A stretch of 64,000 bases of DNA. Origin: Chloroflexota bacterium (lineage in GTDB: Bacteria > Chloroflexota > Anaerolineae > Aggregatilineales > Phototrophicaceae). Below the pieces are notes generated by a model, which saw nothing but the letters and a program-made list of their open reading frames with translations, had not been told where the DNA came from and ran no database searches. Each line of letters opens with the position of its first letter. Position 1 is the stretch's first letter. Positions 7,231-33,293 of the stretch are shown here, in pieces. The translations under genes and the position numbers were made by a program. Where the stretch lies: contig JACAES010000087.1 of NCBI GenBank assembly GCA_013388735.1, positions 1 to 64,000 on the forward strand. The letters are read 5' to 3'.

Positions 7231-8583
7231 CTAATCCCCATCAATCAGCCGCTTCGACAATCGGTTATGCTGCTCGACCAGCACCGGCACATCCACTGTG
7301 AGCAGCGCGCCATCTTCAACGACGATGCGTCCATTGATGATGCTTAAATCTACCTGAGGCGACTGGCAGAAAACCAGCGCAGCGGCAGGGTCGTGCAGCG
7401 CCCCCGCGAAGCCGACCGTATCCAGCCGGAACGCGACTATATCCGCCGCCATACCGGGCGCTACCGCACCGATGTCGTCCCGCCCCAACACCGCCGCGCC
7501 GCCGAGGGTCGCCATTTCCAGCGCTTCCCGCGCGGACAGCCCCGCCGGATTACCCCCTACCCTTTGCAGCAGCATCGCCTCACGCGCTTCGTTAAGCAGA
7601 TGCCCGGCATCGTTGGAAGCCGCGCCGTCCACGCCCAGGCCGACCCTCACCTGCAAGTCCAGCATCCGGCGCACCGGCGCAATTCCTGATGCCAGCCGCA
7701 TGTTGCTGCCCGGACAATGACACACGCCGGTTCCGGTACGGGCAAACAGGCTGATTTCGCCCTCGTCCAGCTTCACGCAGTGTGCGTGCCATACGTCATC
7801 ACCGACCCATCCCACATCCTCGGCCCAATCGCCGGGGCGCTTGTGGAATACAGTCTGGCTGTAGGTGACATCATTATCATTTTCGGCTAAATGCGTGTGC
7901 AGATGAACGCCGTAGCTGCGCGCCAGCGCCGCCGATTCGCGCATCAAGTCCGGCGTGACGCTGAACGGCGAACACGGCGCAACGACTATACGAAGCATGG
8001 CGTGGCGGCTGGCGTCGTGAAACTGTTCAATCGCCCGCTGCGTATCCCGTAAAATTGCCGCTTCTTCTTCGACCACCGAATCCGGCGGCAGCCCACCTTT
8101 GCTCTCGCCCAGGCTCATCGAGCCGCGCGCCGCATGAAAACGAATGCCCATCTCCTGCGCCGCGCGGATTTCATCATCAATCGTCACGTCGTTGGGGTAA
8201 ATATACAGGTGATCGCTGGAGGTGGTGCAGCCGGACCGCAGCAGTTCAGCCATCGCCAGTTTGGCAGATACGTACACCGCTTCGCCGGTCAGCCGGCTCC
8301 AGATCGGGTACAGCGTCTTCAGCCAGCCGAACAGTTCCAAATCCTGCGCGATCACCCGCGTGAGCGTCTGGTACATATGATGATGGGTGTTCACCAGCCC
8401 CGGCAGCACGATATGGCGGCGGCAGTCCAGCACCCTGTCGGCAGTCTGCGCCGGCATATCCGCCAGCGCGCCGACCGCTTCGATCACGCCATCACCCACA
8501 AACACCGCCCCGTCGCGGATTTCCCGCCGCGCGGCGTCCATTGTCACCAGCGTATGAATATTCTTGACAAGAAGGGTTGACAT
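7231..8583 (-). CDS. 8-oxoguanine deaminase-type amidohydrolase
   Basis: A 450-residue amidohydrolase of the guanine deaminase/atrazine chlorohydrolase group. The metal motif is H67-x-H69 in NTHHHMYQTLTR, followed by HLHTHLAEND, HAHCVKLD and GLGVDGAASND. The exact wording (ELFGWLKTLYPIWSRL, SSDHLYIYPND, APCSPFSVT, CPGSNMRLASGIAPVRRM) matches 8-oxoguanine deaminases, which turn 8-oxoguanine into uric acid, better than plain guanine deaminase. The related enterobacterial SsnA is another homologue. It lies upstream of the Nudix and adenine deaminase genes on the same strand. Substrate is inferred from family resemblance. Confidence 0.88.
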   Translation of the reverse strand: MSTLLVKNIHTLVTMDAARREIRDGAVFVGDGVIEAVGALADMPAQTADRVLDCRRHIVLPGLVNTHHHMYQTLTRVIAQDLELFGWLKTLYPIWSRLTGEAVYVSAKLAMAELLRSGCTTSSDHLYIYPNDVTIDDEIRAAQEMGIRFHAARGSMSLGESKGGLPPDSVVEEEAAILRDTQRAIEQFHDASRHAMLRIVVAPCSPFSVTPDLMRESAALARSYGVHLHTHLAENDNDVTYSQTVFHKRPGDWAEDVGWVGDDVWHAHCVKLDEGEISLFARTGTGVCHCPGSNMRLASGIAPVRRMLDLQVRVGLGVDGAASNDAGHLLNEAREAMLLQRVGGNPAGLSAREALEMATLGGAAVLGRDDIGAVAPGMAADIVAFRLDTVGFAGALHDPAAALVFCQSPQVDLSIINGRIVVEDGALLTVDVPVLVEQHNRLSKRLIDGD

Positions 8584-8674
8584 AAAATTTCTCGTTGCAG
8601 CGTCAGGTTTACAGCCGATTATAACACGCTCGACCGTTTACTCTCCGGTATATTCCAGCGCAGCATAGATTGCA

Positions 8675-8695
8675 CCGAGGGTTTAAAACCCTCGG
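8675..8695 (-). terminator. Perfect palindrome just after folD, terminator-like
   Basis: The sequence ccgaggg-tttaaaa-ccctcgg forms a 7-bp GC-rich stem, or 10 bp if the A/T centre also pairs, starting 10 bases past the folD stop on the minus strand. No long T-run follows, so it may act as a weak terminator, processing site or stabiliser. It could also be a dispersed palindrome. Confidence 0.45.
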
Positions 8696-8704
8696 CGCTT
8701 GGCC

Positions 8705-9595
8705 TTACACTGCCGCCCGCTCCGCGATGCGCCGCGCCGCTTTCATAGTGTTATGCAGCAGCATGGTGATCGTCATCGGCCCAACCCCGCCCGGCACCTG
8801 CGTGATGGCGCTGGCAACTTCTTTGGCCGCTTCGAACTCCACGTCGCCCACCCAGCGGTAGCCTTTTTCCGCCTGCGGATCGTCAATTTTGTTTGTGCCT
8901 ACGTCAATCACCACCGCGCCGGGTTTGATCCACTCGCCCTTCACAAACTCCGGCTGACCGATGGCAGCGATCACGATGTCGGCGCGGCGCACGATGTCGG
9001 GGATGTCCTTCGTCCGGCTGTGGCAGACCGTCACGGTCGCGTTGGCCTTCAACAGCATCAGCGCCACCGGCAGCCCGACGATGTTGCTGCGCCCGATCAC
9101 CACCGCGTTCGCGCCTTCGATCTTGGCGCCGACTTCCTTCAGGATAACCATGCAGCCGGTCGGCGTGGCCGGGGTGAAGGTTGGCTCGCGGCCTTTCATG
9201 CCCAGCAGACCGATGTTCTCCGGGTGAAAACCATCCACGTCTTTATCCAGGCTCACCAGCCGCAACACGCGCTCCTCGTGGATATGTTTCGGCAGCGGAA
9301 GCTGCACCAGGATGCCGTGAATGGAGGCATCGTCGTTTAACGCCCTCACCACCGCCTCGACTTCTTCCTGGGTGCTGGCCGCCGTCATGGTGTGCGCGAC
9401 CGAGGTAAACCCCACTTTTTCGCAGGCGCGGCGTTTCATCCGCACGTACTGGGCGGAAGCCGGGTCATCCCCGGCCAGCACCGCGCCCAAGCCCGGCGCA
9501 TAACCGAACCGCGCTTTAAACTGTTCGACCTCAGCGGCGATCTCGGCCTGCATCCGGTCGGCAATCATCTTCCCGTCAATAATTGTCGCAGTCAT
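8705..9595 (-). CDS. folD: Methylenetetrahydrofolate dehydrogenase/methenyltetrahydrofolate cyclohydrolase
   Basis: A 296-residue FolD, the cytosolic bifunctional enzyme interconverting 5,10-methylene-THF, 5,10-methenyl-THF and 10-formyl-THF. Diagnostic motifs are YVRMKRRACEKVG (YxxxK catalytic region), VQLPLPKH, DKDVDGFHPENIG, GRSNIVGLPVALML (NAD(P) binding) and PGGVGPMTI near the C-terminus. The ATG at 9595 is preceded by TTGAGGAAAACG and is preferred over the TTG four codons upstream, which lies inside that binding site. In purine-fermenting bacteria FolD processes the formimino/methenyl-THF released from the purine ring, so its position at the head of this run fits. It is also a general housekeeping enzyme. 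Confidence 0.96.
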   Translation of the reverse strand: MTATIIDGKMIADRMQAEIAAEVEQFKARFGYAPGLGAVLAGDDPASAQYVRMKRRACEKVGFTSVAHTMTAASTQEEVEAVVRALNDDASIHGILVQLPLPKHIHEERVLRLVSLDKDVDGFHPENIGLLGMKGREPTFTPATPTGCMVILKEVGAKIEGANAVVIGRSNIVGLPVALMLLKANATVTVCHSRTKDIPDIVRRADIVIAAIGQPEFVKGEWIKPGAVVIDVGTNKIDDPQAEKGYRWVGDVEFEAAKEVASAITQVPGGVGPMTITMLLHNTMKAARRIAERAAV

Positions 9596-9616
9596 CGTTT
9601 TCCTCAACTTTATTAG

Positions 9617-9642
9617 CCGGGATAATATGTAGTTTGTCCCGG
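9617..9642 (-). promoter_or_regulatory. Inverted repeat upstream of folD
   Basis: CCGGGA at 9617-9622 and TCCCGG at 9637-9642 are perfect inverted copies separated by 14 A/T-rich bases, about 22 bases before the folD start. The spacer includes ATATTAT on the minus strand, a possible -10 element. The site could be an operator over a promoter or a 5'-UTR hairpin; no known factor is recognised. Confidence 0.35.
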
Positions 9643-9869
9643 TGAAAAAAACTTTCTATCCTTGCTTTCAGCATAACATACGCCAAAAGTATAGACGAGT
9701 GATGAAGGTTACTATTGCTCATTGATGAATTGTCAACGCATTTGTACAACTCACCGACAAAAAAGCATCGCCTCTGGCCGGTAATCGAGTAACATAGATA
9801 GAGGGGAAGATTCCTTCTCCACAACATCCCTGCATTGTAACCGATCAGTTGATTGGGTAGGGGGTCGAG

Positions 9870-12800
9870 ATGACGAATCCACAATCAAAGCTCAGGCTTT
9901 TATGGCGTGGAGCCGCCGGCCAGGCGCTCATTGAATACGCGCTGATTTTGATCCTGGTGGCGATGGCACTGCTGGCCGCCCTGCTGGCGACCGGCCCGGC
10001 TATCGCCAACGTCTTTAGCAACACCGTCTGTAACCTGGTTGGCCTGGAGGACTGCGACCCGGACAGCCTGGTAGACCAGGGCGGCGGGCCGGAAAGTTTC
10101 TGGCAAACCGTCACGGCGGTCGCTCAAAACCCGCCGCTAGAAGAGCCAATCCCAACCAATAAACCATTCCCGACCAAACCTCTCCCTACCGATGGCCCAT
10201 CACCGACGCCAACGCCCAAAACACCGACGGCGACTTTTCCGCCCACCGCCACCGACAAACCGACCAATACGCCGGAAGATTTCGGCCACACCATCCCGTT
10301 TATAGACCCGATTGACCATCCCGAATGGTGGCGTGTGGACAGCAGCATCTTCCTGGGCGGCGAGGACTGGTGGGGCGAGTATTACCCCAACAAAGACCTG
10401 TCCGGCGCACCCGACGAGCAGATGTGGAACTACCAGCTCACCCCCGACAAAATCCACAAGTTCAACATCAACTTCGACTGGGGCGCGGGCGGGCCGATTG
10501 CCGGCTGGTCAACCGATAACTTCTCGGTTCGCTGGACGCGGACGATTTACGTCGCCGGAACAGAGGACATCTCCCTGACGGCCACAATCACGTCCATCGG
10601 CGGCGTGCGGTTCTGGGTGGACTCTGACCTCAAGCTCAACGACTGGTCGAACCGAACCCTCAACAGCACCCCATTGGCAACGACCTTCACGCTCACCCCC
10701 GGCACGCACCAGTTCAAACTGGAATATTACGTCGGTACGGGTGACGCCGCCGTTTACCTGGATGTCAACCATTATCAAGGCAATGTCCGTGACGATGCCA
10801 ATCTGGCTTCCGGCGATCCCAACTGCCAATGGACGCGCATCAACGGCAGCCAGCCCAATACGGTCGCCTGGGCCTGGAAGGAAAGCCCCGGCGGCACCGG
10901 CAGCGGCTTCCCGGCCAACATGCGCTGCAACCTGGAACTGCGCGGTTACGTGTTCCTGGATACCGCCAAGCAGTCCAACCCCAAAATGGCCTTCTGGGAT
11001 GTCTGGGACCTGGGCGGCGGCGGCTCGGTGACGCTGCAAATCGCGGAGTACGCGCCTTATGTTTATCTGCCGGATGGGACGGTTGACCCCAACAGCGGCC
11101 CGAACTGGGCCGGCGGCACGTCCATAACCCTGCGCAGCGGCGGCAGGAACTACGCCTGGACACGCAACTACGTGGACATCCCGACCAGCTACTACAACAA
11201 AAACATCGCCTACCGCTTCATTCTGCAAAGCGGCGGCGGTGGCGGCACGCGGCGCTGGTATGTGGACGACATCGCTATTCTCAATATGCCCACCCGCACC
11301 TTCAGCGTTTGCACCGGCAGCCTGGCGGCCTGCGGCAATTACTGGCATCTTGATAATGACGGCCAGAAAGCCGACTTCATCACGTCCGGGCGCTGGGCGC
11401 TGACGACCACCAACCATTTCGGCAGCACCGGCACCTCCTGGGATTCCAGCGGCGGTTCGTCCTACGTGCGTTTTGGGCCGGAGCAGCCGTCCGGCCAGGC
11501 CGACGACAACCGCGTTTATTCCATCGAATTTAACGGTCAGGTGGTTTTCCAGAATATTGACGAAAACGGCCTCGGCGGCATCCCGGACTGGGAAGGCAAT
11601 GACGGCATTCCGCAGCTTCGGTTTTACCATGCCTACAACATCGAAAGCGGCACGTCGCTGGAAATCCAGTACACCCGCGACCCGGTCGGCACGACGCCCG
11701 CCAACTGGCAAACCCTCCGGTCGCTGGTAAGCGGCGCGGCCACCGACCTGAGCATGAAGCAGGTTGAAATAGACCTGGGCGCTGTACCCAACTGGTGGCA
11801 GTCGCCGTTCCGGCTGCGCTTCGCCATGAAGGTGAATAACAGCCTAACCCCGGCCAAACCCGGCTGGTGGATTGACAGCATCGTGTTCGCGCGCAAGGGT
11901 GTCGCGCGGTACAGCGAGTATCCCTTCTGCGACGGCGCGGAAACCAGCATGGATAAATGGCTGACCGCCGGCGGCTGGGAAAACAGCGCCCAGCCCGGCG
12001 CATTCGGCAGTTCCCGCGCTTTCACCGACAGCCCCATCGGCAACTACCCGCACGGCCAGGAAACCTGGATCGAACTGCGCTACCCGATTGACTTTAACAA
12101 CGACACGCCAGAGAACCTGACGGTGTGGGGCGGCAACAAGGACTGCCTGAACAAAAACCCATCCGGCGCAGCCGTCCGCCCGATCCTCACCTTCTGGCAC
12201 TGGCGCGATCTGGCGGCCAACGAGTCCTTCTATGTGGATGTCATGCGGCCCGCCCATGCGGCCTCCGGCACGGCGAAGGTGGACTGGACGCCGATCTGGA
12301 GTTACGTCTACAACAGCACCAACCGGGTGCAGTTGGCCTGGGAACAGGTTGAGATCGAGATGGAACGGGGCATCCTGGATGCCATCTTCACGCGCACCGG
12401 CGTCACTACGGACTGGAATACACTCAAGACCAACGGCAACGCTTACGACGATGACTTCTACTTCCGAATCCGTCTGGATACCCGTTCCAACACCAGCGTT
12501 GCCGACGGCATCTATATAGACAACATAGACATCAAAAACTACTCCGAAACATCTCATCGTCTGTGGGACATCTCCGCCGGTGGCGACGGCGCGCGCTTCG
12601 TGGACAACATTGATACCCCGGCGGAATGGTGGACGCGCTGGCGCAACGGTGGCGACTGGGCCAGCACGGACAGCGCCAACTGGCAGATACCCAACCCGCC
12701 CATGCCCTACTGGTGGAAAGCCCATAACAGCTTCGCGGCCTTTCACGACAGCCCGCCGCCAACCGTGAGCGATAACTACGATACCTACTACCGTCATGCG

Positions 12801-14327
12801 ACTTACTCCGTCCTGGAGATGAACCGGATCATTGACCTGACCGGCGCGCTGGCAAGCGACCAGCCCACCCTGTACTTCTGGAATCACTACAGCGTCGGCT
12901 CCAGAGACAAAATCCGGGTTGAGGTCGCCGTCCAGGACTCGACGCGCACCCGCACCGGCTACAGCTACCTGTATGGCTGGGGGTCGGATAAGTCCTACGC
13001 CTCGCCGAACTACTCGTCCTGGCAGGATGTCTGGAGCAAGGGTGAGTACGCCCGCGTGGATACCTGGGTGCGCGAGCAGGTTGATCTGTCCGAATTCGCC
13101 GGCAAACGTATCCGCATCCGCTTCGTCATGAACGCGCTGGACAGCTCCAGCAACCTGCGGGATGGCTGGTACATTGACGACATCCGCATCGAACACAAGT
13201 CCACGCGCATCATGCCCTTCCCCTTCTTCGATCCGGCGGCCAATACCCAGAACTGGATCACCGAAGGCCTGTGGGGACTGGCGCCTGACCTGTGGAAAGG
13301 CACCGGCGGCGGCCCGGCCAACCTCGGCCCGGACACCTGGAAGGGTTACTTCCTGAAGTGTACCAATACGTCCAACGTGGTCGTGGACTGTTCGGTCAAT
13401 AAAAACCCATCCAACGCGAATAACTTCCTGAACCGGCTGACGCCGACAGTGGCGGCCATGAACGCCTACGTGGCGGCCAACCCGACCAAGGTGCTGCCGA
13501 TGTATGAGTCCAACGATGTGGTCTTCGACCTCGGCACGACCGGCAGGCCGCCGGGTGCGCCGCTGGGTACGGCGGGCAACGCCTGGGATAACCAGTACGT
13601 CGGGCGCTGGATCCGCCAGATCAGCGTGCTGTCGGGCGAATACCTCTTCGCCACCACCTCCGACGACGGCGTGCGGATGCGTTACGAACCGGCGGATACG
13701 CCGGACATCACCTCGCCGTATAACTGGAATATCCTCAATTACTGGAAGGAGACGTCCCGCACCGTCCAGTACAAGATCGTCACCCTGAACGAAGGCAGCT
13801 ATAACGTCGTGCTGGAATGGTTTGAAGCTACCGGCGACGCGGCCATCATCCTGCAGGCCGGCAACAACAATTTCTCCTTCAGCGACAGCCCACGCGCCAG
13901 CCTGCTCAGCGATGCCCTGCCGTCGGTGGCTTATGGCAACTCGTCGCTCATGCTCGACGGCGTGCTGAACCTCAACCGCCCAAGTGGTATGCCGTCTTCA
14001 TTGTGGCTGCCCAAGCTCAGCTACTACACCTACTGGCAGCTTGGCAGCAGCAACTCGGCCAATGCGGAGGTTTCGATTGACGGCGGCCTGAGCTGGACTC
14101 AGAATAATCTGAACCAGAACTGTCCGTCCGGGGCGACGTGCAGCCCGACCATCACCGGCTGGAGCGACCGCCTGCCGCCCAACGACTGGCAGTGGCGCGT
14201 GCATGATCTTCGCACCTATGGCAACCGCCCAGGCACGAGCAATTTTGTCGGGCTGCGTTTCCGGCTTAATACCGGCAGCAGCGTGCGCGACGGCTGGTGG
14301 ATTACGGAAATCAGCGTGAACAACTAA
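9870..14327 (+). CDS. Giant Flp-type pilin-like protein with PA14 and repeated jelly-roll modules
   Basis: A 1485-residue protein. Residues 1-17 form a basic leader ending in glycine, followed by QALIEYALILILVAMALLAA. This is a class III prepilin signal, with cleavage after G17, glutamate at +5 (E22) and a hydrophobic helix, as in Flp/Tad pilins. Residues about 85-135 are a Pro/Thr-rich linker. A PA14-like module spans about 190-310 (GGVRFWVDSDLKLNDW, then GTHQFKLEYYVGTGDAAVYL) and a second one about 1225-1375. Between and after them are about five beta-sandwich modules of about 200 residues, each ending in a variant of DGWWIDDI (near 462, 665, 878, 1098 and 1474). Known Flp pilins are about 50-80 residues. 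No Tad assembly genes lie in the window. Surface adhesion or carbohydrate binding is inferred. Confidence 0.9.
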   Translation: MTNPQSKLRLLWRGAAGQALIEYALILILVAMALLAALLATGPAIANVFSNTVCNLVGLEDCDPDSLVDQGGGPESFWQTVTAVAQNPPLEEPIPTNKPFPTKPLPTDGPSPTPTPKTPTATFPPTATDKPTNTPEDFGHTIPFIDPIDHPEWWRVDSSIFLGGEDWWGEYYPNKDLSGAPDEQMWNYQLTPDKIHKFNINFDWGAGGPIAGWSTDNFSVRWTRTIYVAGTEDISLTATITSIGGVRFWVDSDLKLNDWSNRTLNSTPLATTFTLTPGTHQFKLEYYVGTGDAAVYLDVNHYQGNVRDDANLASGDPNCQWTRINGSQPNTVAWAWKESPGGTGSGFPANMRCNLELRGYVFLDTAKQSNPKMAFWDVWDLGGGGSVTLQIAEYAPYVYLPDGTVDPNSGPNWAGGTSITLRSGGRNYAWTRNYVDIPTSYYNKNIAYRFILQSGGGGGTRRWYVDDIAILNMPTRTFSVCTGSLAACGNYWHLDNDGQKADFITSGRWALTTTNHFGSTGTSWDSSGGSSYVRFGPEQPSGQADDNRVYSIEFNGQVVFQNIDENGLGGIPDWEGNDGIPQLRFYHAYNIESGTSLEIQYTRDPVGTTPANWQTLRSLVSGAATDLSMKQVEIDLGAVPNWWQSPFRLRFAMKVNNSLTPAKPGWWIDSIVFARKGVARYSEYPFCDGAETSMDKWLTAGGWENSAQPGAFGSSRAFTDSPIGNYPHGQETWIELRYPIDFNNDTPENLTVWGGNKDCLNKNPSGAAVRPILTFWHWRDLAANESFYVDVMRPAHAASGTAKVDWTPIWSYVYNSTNRVQLAWEQVEIEMERGILDAIFTRTGVTTDWNTLKTNGNAYDDDFYFRIRLDTRSNTSVADGIYIDNIDIKNYSETSHRLWDISAGGDGARFVDNIDTPAEWWTRWRNGGDWASTDSANWQIPNPPMPYWWKAHNSFAAFHDSPPPTVSDNYDTYYRHATYSVLEMNRIIDLTGALASDQPTLYFWNHYSVGSRDKIRVEVAVQDSTRTRTGYSYLYGWGSDKSYASPNYSSWQDVWSKGEYARVDTWVREQVDLSEFAGKRIRIRFVMNALDSSSNLRDGWYIDDIRIEHKSTRIMPFPFFDPAANTQNWITEGLWGLAPDLWKGTGGGPANLGPDTWKGYFLKCTNTSNVVVDCSVNKNPSNANNFLNRLTPTVAAMNAYVAANPTKVLPMYESNDVVFDLGTTGRPPGAPLGTAGNAWDNQYVGRWIRQISVLSGEYLFATTSDDGVRMRYEPADTPDITSPYNWNILNYWKETSRTVQYKIVTLNEGSYNVVLEWFEATGDAAIILQAGNNNFSFSDSPRASLLSDALPSVAYGNSSLMLDGVLNLNRPSGMPSSLWLPKLSYYTYWQLGSSNSANAEVSIDGGLSWTQNNLNQNCPSGATCSPTITGWSDRLPPNDWQWRVHDLRTYGNRPGTSNFVGLRFRLNTGSSVRDGWWITEISVNN

Positions 14328-14351: not shown

Positions 14352-14389
14352 AAGGGCGACCGGCACAATACGGTCGCCCTTTGCTTTTC
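14352..14389 (+). terminator. Rho-independent terminator after the giant pilin gene
   Basis: A perfect 11-bp stem (aagggcgaccg, 14352-14362; cggtcgccctt, 14371-14381) with an 8-base loop is followed by a T-rich tract (tgctttt). It lies 24 bases past the stop, so the pilin gene is probably monocistronic. Confidence 0.85.
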
Positions 14390-14474: not shown

Positions 14475-15491
14475 ATGGTCACGATTTCACAAAGACGCCA
14501 GGGACTTCTGTTCGTGCTGGTTGGCCCGGCAGGGGTGGGCAAGAACGAAATCATGAAACAGGTGCTGCCACGCATCGGCAACCTGCGCCAGCTTCCCACC
14601 GCCACCACCCGCCCCATCCGCGCCAGCGAGCTGCACGGACGCGAGCATCTATTTGTGTCCCGCCTGGAATTCCAGAAATTGATCGAAACCAACGCCCTCA
14701 TCGAGTGGCAGACCGTTCACGATGAACTGTACGGGATGCCGCGTGCGACCGTCGAACAGGCGATTGCCAACGAAGAAGACCTGATCGCCGATATTGAAGT
14801 CCTGGGGGCTACGTACCTGCGCTCGCTTTACCCGGATAATTCGGTGCTGATTTTTATCCAACCGCCTTCGCTTGATGAACTTAATAAACGAATGGCGAAA
14901 CGCGGCGAATCGCCGGAGCAAATCGCCAAACGGCTGCGCCGGGTGGACATGGAAATGCAGTACGCGCCGCTGTGCGATTATCTCATCACCAACGAAAAGC
15001 TGGATGAGGCCAGCGAGATTTTGTATGCCATCGTGCTGGCAGAGCGCAGTCACCGCGCGCTGCTGAACCTGCGCGTTGAACGTAATCTGCCCCGCCACAA
15101 GTTCGTCTATGCAACGATGGTGATCCCGATGTTTAATGGCGAAGTGCTGTGCCATGACCACGAGCCGCATTTTCCGACCAGCTACCCGACACACGGTGAA
15201 TTTCCGCACGAGGCCGCGCTGCGCGCGCTCAGGAACGAAATCGGCATCACACCATCCACCGATTATCTCTCCAAAACGCCGCTCGACTCGTTCATCCTGC
15301 CGGCGGCTTTGGATACCGTCGTCCAGGAACACTTCCAACAGGTGGTCTTCATCTACCTGTATGCTATGTCGGAACGTATCATGCCGCCGGAACACTGGAC
15401 ATGGACTCCCTGCCGGGAAGCGGCTCTGCCGCAGACAGTGCTGGACATCCTGGACGAGCAGAAAAGACTCATGCCGGAAGGTTTGTCATAA
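14475..15491 (+). CDS. Guanylate kinase-like protein fused to a degenerate Nudix-like domain
   Basis: A 338-residue protein in two parts. Residues about 10-190 look like guanylate kinase: P-loop GPAGVGK (17-23), TATTRPIRASELHGREHLF for GMP binding, LIEWQTVHDELYGMP, and the lid-like RLRRVDMEM. Residues about 208-330 resemble a Nudix fold. The box region (241-258, GEFPHEAALRALRNEIGI) keeps the arginine, one glutamate and the glycine but has alanine and asparagine where two catalytic glutamates should be. The kinase half should phosphorylate GMP or a similar nucleotide; the Nudix half is likely a binding or regulatory domain. Ordinary guanylate kinases are about 200 residues. ygfZ follows by 13 bases. 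Confidence 0.85.
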   Translation: MVTISQRRQGLLFVLVGPAGVGKNEIMKQVLPRIGNLRQLPTATTRPIRASELHGREHLFVSRLEFQKLIETNALIEWQTVHDELYGMPRATVEQAIANEEDLIADIEVLGATYLRSLYPDNSVLIFIQPPSLDELNKRMAKRGESPEQIAKRLRRVDMEMQYAPLCDYLITNEKLDEASEILYAIVLAERSHRALLNLRVERNLPRHKFVYATMVIPMFNGEVLCHDHEPHFPTSYPTHGEFPHEAALRALRNEIGITPSTDYLSKTPLDSFILPAALDTVVQEHFQQVVFIYLYAMSERIMPPEHWTWTPCREAALPQTVLDILDEQKRLMPEGLS

Positions 15492-31409: not shown

Positions 31410-33293
31410 TCAGTCTTCGATGATCTCGTCGTTTTTGCGCTTGCGTTTAGGCGCGGGGCGGCGGACGGTGTACCCCAGGTAAACGCCCAGGCCAACCACC
31501 AGCAGCGCGACCGGCAGACTCAGTTCCGACCGCCACAGGCTTTCCAGGCCGGGCAGTTGCAGGCCGCTTTCCTGCGCCGGCGGCAAAACAGGTGTCGGCG
31601 TGGGCGGCGGCTCGGCGGGGCGAAGCGCCGGTGATACAGCGCCGGCGGCGATTTCGGCCTTGCGATTCAACGCGGCCAGTTCGTCCGTAATCAGGCGCAG
31701 CGCCAGGTCGGCCAACTGCTCGACCGTGTAATCGCCCTGCCGCCCGGTTTCCGGGTCTGCCGGTTCGCCGACGTGCAGATCAGGCCGCGACTCGCCGGGT
31801 GTCCCCGGCACACCCTGTTCGTAGGTCAGGAAGAGGAAGTGACCCATCGTGTACTGGGCGATCTGCCGGAAGATGAATTCGCCGTCCAACGTCAGGCCGC
31901 TGGATGCAATCGGGTGGATTTTGATGCCGCGCTGCGCGGCGGCCACCATTTCCTGAGCATAATCGTAATCGTTCGGATAGTCGAGGTGCGGCGGCGCATC
32001 GGCAACCAGGAAAATCAGCTTGACCGTATCATCGCCCCGCCAGCTTACGTTATGCACCGCTTCGTGCAGCGCCTCGTTCAGCGCTTCGGGCGTATCGCCG
32101 CCGCCGTCGGCGCGCACGGCATTCAGGCTGGCCTGGAACTGTGACACCTCTGGCGTGAAATCGGTCGTCTGGATCACATAGGCGTCACCCCGGTCGCGGT
32201 ACGTCACCAGACCGTAGCGCACGTCGGCGTTCGCCAGCCGGTCGGCAATCTGCGACGAAATATTCAGGATATTATTCTGCAACTGGGCGATCTCATCCCC
32301 CATGCTGCCGGTCGAGTCCAGCAAAAACAGCACATCCAGCCGGGCAGCGGAGCGTTCGGCCTGCGCCAGCGTGACCGTCCAGACTGAGCTGCGCTGCGGA
32401 TCGAGCGTGAACTGGCGGGCAATTTCCCCTTTGCTGACCACGACACGGAACGACTGCGCGTGCTGCGCCTCAGGCCGCGCCGACGGGAAAAAGAGCGTCT
32501 GCCCGGTGGCATAGGTGCGCGAGTCGCCGATCAGGGTTTGCCCGGCGTAGACCTGCACGCGCGCGCCCAGCACCGGCATCCCCTTTTCGTCGGCCACTAT
32601 AATGATCTGCCGCCCGCTCACGTCCACGTCATGCACCGTCCGGCCATACTGCGGCAGGAAGTTCCGCCGGTACAGCAGGTAATCATCCCAGCGAGCGTTG
32701 TCGTTGATCTCGCCCGCGCTCAGAGGCATAAGCGCCATCTGTGTCGGCGCGGCCTGCGGCTCTAAAAACCCGGCAGTCGGGCCAACCGGCAGCGCCGTGA
32801 CGCCCGATAAACCATCCATTGGCGGCGCGGGCGTCATCCGCGCGACCGAGGTCGTAACCGGCTCCCTCGGCGGCGAATCGCGGCCAGGGACCGGCGTTGA
32901 ATAGGACGCTACCCCGCCGTAGGCATTAACGATATTGCTAAAAACGCTGCCGACACTCGGCCCCAGCATCGCCAGGAATACCAGCGAGACGGAAACCAGC
33001 GCCACACAGGCCGCCGCCAGCAGCCCCAGCCGGCGCACCCAGACGCGGGGCTGTGTTTGCTGGTGGAGCCGCCGCTTCTGTAAAGCCTGCTCCAAGCGTC
33101 CCCGCACCTGGGACTGCTCATCGGCGGTTTCCGCATCAGCATCCTGCTGCGCCCGGAAAACCAGGTCAGCCGTCTTGAGCAGATCGCGCAGCCGGCCCGC
33201 ATGTTCCGGGTAATCGCGTAGGCAGTTTTCGAGCCTTTCGCCGGACTGCACCCGGTCAAGGCAGTCGGCCAGCGCATCCAGAAGTTCAGCCAT
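31410..33293 (-). CDS. VWA-domain membrane protein with anti-sigma-like N-terminus
   Basis: A 627-residue protein downstream of, and overlapping by 8 bases, the ECF sigma gene. Residues 1-75 are helical (CLDRVQSGERLENCLRDYPEH) and resemble cytosolic anti-sigma domains found next to such sigma factors. A membrane span lies at about 89-110, a Pro/Thr-rich extracellular linker follows, and a von Willebrand A domain with MIDAS motif DSTGS starts near 326. A second Pro-rich stretch precedes the C-terminal span at about 592-610 and a basic tail. Both ends would be inside and the VWA domain outside. CGGAGG precedes the ATG. Sensing an external ligand and releasing the sigma factor is inferred. Confidence 0.85.
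   Translation of the reverse strand: MAELLDALADCLDRVQSGERLENCLRDYPEHAGRLRDLLKTADLVFRAQQDADAETADEQSQVRGRLEQALQKRRLHQQTQPRVWVRRLGLLAAACVALVSVSLVFLAMLGPSVGSVFSNIVNAYGGVASYSTPVPGRDSPPREPVTTSVARMTPAPPMDGLSGVTALPVGPTAGFLEPQAAPTQMALMPLSAGEINDNARWDDYLLYRRNFLPQYGRTVHDVDVSGRQIIIVADEKGMPVLGARVQVYAGQTLIGDSRTYATGQTLFFPSARPEAQHAQSFRVVVSKGEIARQFTLDPQRSSVWTVTLAQAERSAARLDVLFLLDSTGSMGDEIAQLQNNILNISSQIADRLANADVRYGLVTYRDRGDAYVIQTTDFTPEVSQFQASLNAVRADGGGDTPEALNEALHEAVHNVSWRGDDTVKLIFLVADAPPHLDYPNDYDYAQEMVAAAQRGIKIHPIASSGLTLDGEFIFRQIAQYTMGHFLFLTYEQGVPGTPGESRPDLHVGEPADPETGRQGDYTVEQLADLALRLITDELAALNRKAEIAAGAVSPALRPAEPPPTPTPVLPPAQESGLQLPGLESLWRSELSLPVALLVVGLGVYLGYTVRRPAPKRKRKNDEIIED

Follow-up and report, generated by a model that had tools for sequence, protein, structure and literature searches.

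A giant Flp-headed protein conserved across an order of Chloroflexota is a probable modular minor pilin of Tad pili

Flp pilins are generally regarded as minimal helices whose sole task is to build filaments, which raises the question of what a protein of 1485 residues does with such a helix at its N-terminus. A protein of this kind, hereafter the giant, is encoded in the first 64,000 nucleotides (the window, meaning the whole stretch analysed) of contig JACAES010000087.1 from a Chloroflexota bacterium of the order Aggregatilineales (assembly GCA_013388735.1). Its open reading frame lies exactly where a first-pass annotation, made from the sequence alone, had placed it (9870-14327; Table 1). 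We consider it probable that the giant serves the Tad (type IVc) pilus as a modular minor pilin, a likely glycan-binding adhesin carried on that pilus. The analysis demonstrates the fusion itself, its conservation, the pilin motif, the presence of the Tad machinery in the genome, the predicted domain folds and the correlation with TadA; cleavage, incorporation into a pilus, a position at the tip and a glycan ligand are inferred.

The first 40 residues contain the class III prepilin signal recognized in the first-pass annotation: a polar leader ends with G17 (position -1) and is followed by QALIEYALIL, which places E22 at +5 and Y23 at +6 of the mature protein, as in Flp pilins. The Flp-type pilin segment (residues 18-57, QALIEYALILILV...GPAIANVFSNTVCNLVG) shares nearly the whole sequence of small Flp pilins, including the G-P..N-[VI]-F-S motif, is the sole hydrophobic segment of the entire protein by hydropathy and forms an unbroken helix (19-57) in the AlphaFold2 model. 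Residues 1-97 searched alone matched Pfam Flp_Fap (PF04964; E=3.3e-4, 20.9 bits) under the curated cut-off of 32.2, and no TadE or Tad (TadE/G-like) domain, as found in TadE/TadF/TadG minor pilins, was matched in Pfam at E<=1; thus, of the Flp or TadE match anticipated in the first-pass annotation, only the former was obtained, and below threshold. This shortfall means little, given that the genuine small Flp pilins of the same genome (contigs C55, C97 and C36) miss the cut-off as well. Against a profile of 15 rows, one of which is the giant's own head, the head scores 85 bits (E=8e-24), close to the top of all Flp-type heads encoded by the genome. Because its size departs from that of Flp pilins (1485 compared to 50-80 amino acids) and its score misses the Pfam cut-off, we do not classify the giant as one; judging from its sequence, it appears to work like a modular type 4 pilin, with an N-terminal pilin module bearing a class III signal, a linker, and modules of types that are not pilus-specific (PA14 and MAM/carbohydrate-binding module, CBM).

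A survey of Chloroflexota genomes for the same N-terminus, as proposed in the first-pass annotation, revealed Flp-headed giants throughout the order. Within the genus, each of the 16 other sampled genomes has a homologue, full-length or split between contigs. Of the 41 genomes sampled from the rest of the order, 22 encode a frame of 900 amino acids or more that starts with an Flp head (a TadE-headed frame of genome G039 was left out of this count). Outside the order, the head profile recovered small Flps besides a handful of frames measuring about 300-831 amino acids, but none of at least 900, in the sample of the class and, among the best matches listed, in that of the phylum. Conservation of the giant is highest in the pilin segment, with a gap-free mean identity of 69% to the window protein, compared to 24% for the leader, 44% for the linker and 35-43% for the ectodomain modules. 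In 20 aligned full-length orthologues, G17 (-1), Q18 (+1), E22 (+5), Y23 (+6), A24 (+7) and L25 (+8) are invariant. Comparison with a 91% identical orthologue yielded a dN/dS (ratio of nonsynonymous to synonymous substitution rates) of 0.054/0.457 = 0.12, with 363 of the 531 differences in third codon positions, which, together with the order-wide conservation, indicates that the frame is not due to chance; the dN/dS value and the conserved length rule out a frame artefact or pseudogene. In the fetched contigs, mature lengths are strongly bimodal, with small Flps of 39-44 amino acids and big ones exceeding 500. Position +2 is A or S in 29 of 30 giants and G in 39 of 40 small pilins, and a tree built from the 38-residue heads contains a split that separates off all 32 big heads, with a support of 0.69 on these short sequences.

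These patterns bear on the simplest alternative, namely, that the Flp likeness is a coincidental hydrophobic signal-anchor on an ordinary secreted lectin-like protein. Although the sub-threshold Pfam score would fit a coincidence, the motif is invariant over an order, the head scores highly against the Flp-head profile that includes it, and other big Flp-headed proteins with unrelated bodies exist (see below). A chance hydrophobic N-terminus is ruled out by the motif shared by the 20 orthologues, and we regard this alternative as extremely improbable and, for practical purposes, refuted.

Downstream of the pilin helix, two AlphaFold2 models built from orthologue alignments (mean predicted local distance difference test score, pLDDT, 76 and 83) predict a linker that is disordered across most of residues 87-134 (pLDDT <50), followed by an ectodomain (138-1485) rich in tryptophan and tyrosine. 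The protein contains 12 cysteines, in apparent pairs. Pfam PA14 (168-295) and InhA-like MAM (1058-1111) matched above the cut-off. In fold comparisons, the modelled PA14-1 (164-303) aligned with 6qe7/6qdi over 124-125 residues (Z 15.2, root-mean-square deviation 2.3-2.4) and PA14-2 (~1154-1334) with 6qe7 (Z 13.3); a profile search of PDB sequences agrees for both domains (E=1e-13 for PA14-2 and 6qe7). The remaining folds resemble jelly rolls of the MAM/reelin/CBM type: meprin MAM aligned to residues 141-474 and to module 4 (Z 14 each), and 8jiy to 439-808 of the model (Z 12.1; module 5). A motif of the W/Y-[IV]-D-x-I type closes exactly five modules (positions 461, 665, 879, 1098 and 1474). 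Accordingly, the architecture inferred in the first-pass annotation, two PA14-like and about five jelly-roll-like modules with DGWWIDDI-type ends, was recovered by the domain searches and structure prediction, with the module number now fixed at five. Judging from the aligned ranges, each PA14 domain interrupts a jelly roll close to its beginning, in the first and last modules. NCBIfam returned a single match for the giant, a partial M36-peptidase tail domain.

The ectodomain is probably lectin-like and glycan-binding, as suggested by the modelled folds. The sugar-binding MpPA14 matches the giant's PA14 folds with Z 11-12.6 (about 12 for sugar-bound MpPA14 and PA14-2), and the DD pair of the PA14 calcium/sugar site is present in PA14-2 (D1265-D1266), where it is kept in 22 of the 23 orthologues that reach the site. 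A C-terminal beta-propeller of the PilC/PilY1 kind was not matched in Pfam, the predicted C-terminus being a jelly roll, and identity with the PilC/PilY1 tip adhesins was dropped.

If the head serves a Tad pilus, the machinery should be encoded elsewhere, given that, as noted in the first-pass annotation, no tad genes lie nearby: neither the window nor the remainder of the contig contains any, the single TadZ match being to a response-regulator receiver at 42.7-42.9 kb, and a local Tad operon was thus rejected. The genome does encode RcpC, a response-regulator/TadZ ATPase, TadA, TadB and TadC (contig C182), a prepilin peptidase (C121) and TadE- and TadG-type genes (C102). The first-pass annotation had staked its proposal on an above-threshold Flp or TadE match and on the existence of peptidase and Tad genes; the latter are present, and the former falls short for the giant as it does for the genuine small Flps of the genome.

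Furthermore, the giant tracks TadA. In a selection of 45 genomes from the order, all 34 carriers of an Flp-headed giant possess a TadA orthologue (identity of at least 66%), compared to 7 of the 11 non-carriers (Fisher p about 0.002, with kinship among the genomes ignored). The TadA-less genomes (G017, G027, G032 and G034) all lack the giant and all keep a prepilin peptidase; in three of them (G027, G032 and G034), folD and a kinase gene, the usual neighbours of the giant gene, are directly adjacent. Two genomes (G039 and G046) initially counted among the carriers were withdrawn to the non-carriers because their giants have TadE-type heads and occupy a different locus.

These two genomes provide what we consider the strongest sign of the function of the head. 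In the family concerned (f4), a PA14+MAM body homologous to that of the giant is joined to a TadE head, which in L061 scores 46 bits (cut-off 22.9). The respective proteins (L061/L174:6771-12317, minus strand; L175:1428-7058, plus strand) comprise 1848-1876 amino acids and are encoded away from the folD-kinase locus, in G039 (L174) near TadG-like genes. The occurrence of homologous bodies on two kinds of Tad pilin heads suggests that the job of the head is to ride on the Tad system.

Further pilin-headed proteins were observed in the order. The genome analysed here encodes a second big Flp-headed protein of 792 amino acids (C87; L020:1135-3513, minus strand), with a linker of PTAEP-type repeats, two Ig/cadherin-like domains and, at the C-terminus, a lectin domain of the LamG/ConA-like type; a 138-residue Flp-headed protein with a short C-terminal domain of no known type (C44; L021:6596-7012, minus strand); and a 787-residue TadE-headed protein adjoining an 873-residue Tad/vWA (TadG-like) protein (C102; L145:5187-7550 and 7593-10214, minus strand), with another TadE match just upstream of the pair. 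Three Flp-headed proteins of 2182-2470 amino acids (L118:9959-16507, plus strand; L147:2149-8697 and L146:1769-9181, minus strand) carry malectin, PPC, PKD or LamG modules, and L118 and L147 have A rather than G immediately ahead of the cleavage site.

Two alternatives take the head seriously but dispense with the filament. In the first, the cleaved head would be a membrane anchor only, and the ectodomain would decorate the cell surface. Chloroflexota are considered monoderm (PMC13319060), so that no secretin has to be passed by the ectodomain and an anchor alone would suffice for display; moreover, the gene is unlinked to tad genes and a subunit of ~164 kDa is bulky for a filament. However, the whole helix and E+5/Y+6 are more conserved than an anchor needs, the giant tracks TadA although the TadA-less genomes keep the peptidase, and the head has been swapped for another Tad pilin head, not for an anchor, all of which makes pure membrane display unlikely. 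In the second, already raised in the first-pass annotation, the Tad machine would export the processed giant singly, to be released or handed to the surface in the manner of pseudopilus-type secretion. Such export would fit the TadA dependence suggested by the co-occurrence, as well as the size, the extracellular multidomain make-up and the long flexible linker of the protein, but known Tad systems build pili and release would require a second cut near the linker; we regard this scenario as more doubtful still.

Under the preferred reading as a modular pilin, we infer that the prepilin peptidase cuts the leader after G17, upon which the Flp helix would sit in the membrane and be taken up by the TadA/TadB/TadC assembly platform. 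The disordered Pro/Thr linker would then hold the ~150 kDa ectodomain, with its two PA14 domains and five MAM/CBM-like jelly rolls, outside the cell, where it might bind glycans of other cells, matrix or particles. The pilin of the Caulobacter Tad pilus has its N-terminus facing inward and its C-terminus outward (PMC11067988), which makes a C-terminal graft on Flp sterically possible. A position at or near the tip would be most likely because of the bulk of the giant. The first-pass view, in which a pilin helix holds an adhesin at the pilus tip or on the surface, is backed, as regards the holding, by the invariant E+5/Y+6, the TadA correlation and the TadE head exchange, which do not tell tip, shaft and membrane display apart.

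Several observations weigh against this reading. The Flp_Fap score is under the Pfam cut-off, the DD pair is absent from PA14-1 of this genome, and no tad genes lie beside the giant in any orthologue with flanks. The TadA correlation reflects few independent events, with the four TadA-less genomes falling in about three places of a poorly resolved folD tree. Finally, G020 and G030 possess TadA but have an empty giant locus, indicating that the Tad system does not need the giant.

The closest known counterparts are the modular type 4 pilins, such as PilB and PilC of Streptococcus sanguinis, in which a small N-terminal pilin module, followed by a linker, presents adhesive modules, including PA14 and lectin types, on the filament (PMC8179133, PMC9934059). 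Those pilins were found via IPR012902, whereas the giant has an Flp (T4c) stem without a globular head and a seven-domain ectodomain; the most extreme architecture quoted in that survey has 860 residues, compared to ~1,500 here. Normal Flp/Fap pilins (PF04964) share the cleavage motif, the +5 Glu, the +6 Tyr and the ~40-residue helix, but are filament subunits of 50-80 amino acids that end where the giant's linker begins. Among Tad pili, CpaL of Caulobacter likewise fuses a pilin-like head to a functional domain, proposed to reside at the tip, but combines a CpaJ/CpaK-like pilin fold containing a beta-sheet with vWA, in place of a bare Flp helix, PA14 and jelly rolls (PMC12607857). KilL, KilM and KilN of the Myxococcus Kil system are large minor pilins that form exchangeable functional tips on a Tad pilus, but have TadE/F/G-type heads arranged as a heterotrimer, unrelated bodies and a use in predation (PMC12075869). 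The PA14 domains of MpAFP/RTX adhesins and RsgI anti-sigma factors (6x8a, 6m8m, 6qe7) share the fold of both PA14 domains and the DD pair of PA14-2, but sit in RTX adhesins or anti-sigma factors rather than on a pilin.

Nothing relevant on Flp fusions in Chloroflexota was found in the literature searched, most subscription journals and all preprints lying outside its scope. As far as this literature goes, the modular pilin principle is known, whereas an Flp stem, this size, a body of seven domains, conservation across an order and an exchange of heads are undescribed. A complete Flp pilin fused, order-wide and with mostly vertical inheritance, to a seven-domain lectin-like ectodomain extends that principle to Tad pili, and bacteria of this order most likely wear a very large adhesin on them, suggesting what floc- and biofilm-forming Chloroflexota use for binding through their Tad pili. 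Given that a lectin-like body of ~1,300 residues rides either an Flp or a TadE head, and that Flp heads carry unrelated giant bodies of up to ~2,470 amino acids, Tad pilins might even be a general, exchangeable display stem in this order of monoderms, with the Tad machine presenting very large adhesins one by one and not only building thin pili, a generalization that we advance tentatively. One gene at one locus, naturally present or absent, also offers a handle on how the Tad platform copes with a subunit of ~164 kDa.

Table 1. Features of the giant gene, its product and its conserved neighbours (window positions)
Feature	Positions	Strand	Evidence
Giant Flp-headed protein, 1485 aa; mature 1468 aa, 163.6 kDa, pI 4.8	9870..14327	+	Open reading frame and orthologues
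Class III signal leader, residues 1-17, cut expected after G17	9870..9920	+	Sequence; G17 invariant in 20 orthologues
Mature Flp-type pilin helix, residues 18-57, E22 (+5), Y23 (+6)	9921..10040	+	Flp_Fap match, AlphaFold2, identity, hydropathy
Short helix 74-86, then disordered Pro/Thr-rich linker; residues 58-136	10041..10277	+	AlphaFold2, composition
Jelly-roll module 1 (MAM/CBM type), residues ~138-474, PA14-1 apparently inserted after first strands	10281..11291	+	AlphaFold2, fold comparison
PA14 domain 1, residues 164-303, no DD motif in this genome	10359..10778	+	Pfam above cut-off, fold comparison
Jelly-roll module 2, residues 475-680	11292..11909	+	AlphaFold2, reelin-repeat fold matches, end motif
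Jelly-roll module 3 (CBM22/CBM16-like), residues 681-893	11910..12548	+	AlphaFold2, fold comparison, end motif
Jelly-roll module 4 (InhA-like MAM), residues 894-1112	12549..13205	+	Pfam InhA-like_MAM above cut-off; meprin MAM Z 14
Jelly-roll module 5, residues ~1115-1485, PA14-2 apparently inserted	13212..14324	+	8jiy fold match Z 12.1, end motif
PA14 domain 2, residues ~1154-1334, DD pair D1265-D1266 (13662-13667)	13329..13871	+	Profile against PDB, fold comparison
Intrinsic terminator directly 3' of the giant gene	14352..14381	+	11 pairs, 8 GC, T-rich tail
folD, conserved divergent neighbour	8705..9607	-	Pfam, orthologue loci
Guanylate kinase-NUDIX, conserved downstream neighbour	14475..15491	+	Pfam, orthologue loci

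The giant gene has its own terminator, as the first-pass annotation had it, and no RNA element was detected at the gathering threshold in its region. In 18 fetched contigs, down to about 25% protein identity of the giant, its gene is flanked by folD and, at the opposite end, by the guanylate kinase-NUDIX gene, which argues that the giant gene has been mostly inherited vertically and in place, outside any tad island. The remaining orthologue contigs end before these neighbours, and L073 (21 kb) contains neither. Besides the three TadA-less genomes with adjacent folD and kinase genes, empty sites of this kind are found in G020 and G030. The downstream neighbour combines, in one protein, a guanylate kinase domain and then a weak NUDIX domain. 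A record titled Pleurocapsa minor, a cyanobacterium, contains a Chloroflexota folD-giant-kinase locus (L079) and is probably a mis-binned contig. Elsewhere in the window, a 627-residue protein whose second half contains a vWA domain (31413-33293, minus strand) adjoins an open reading frame of 193 amino acids.

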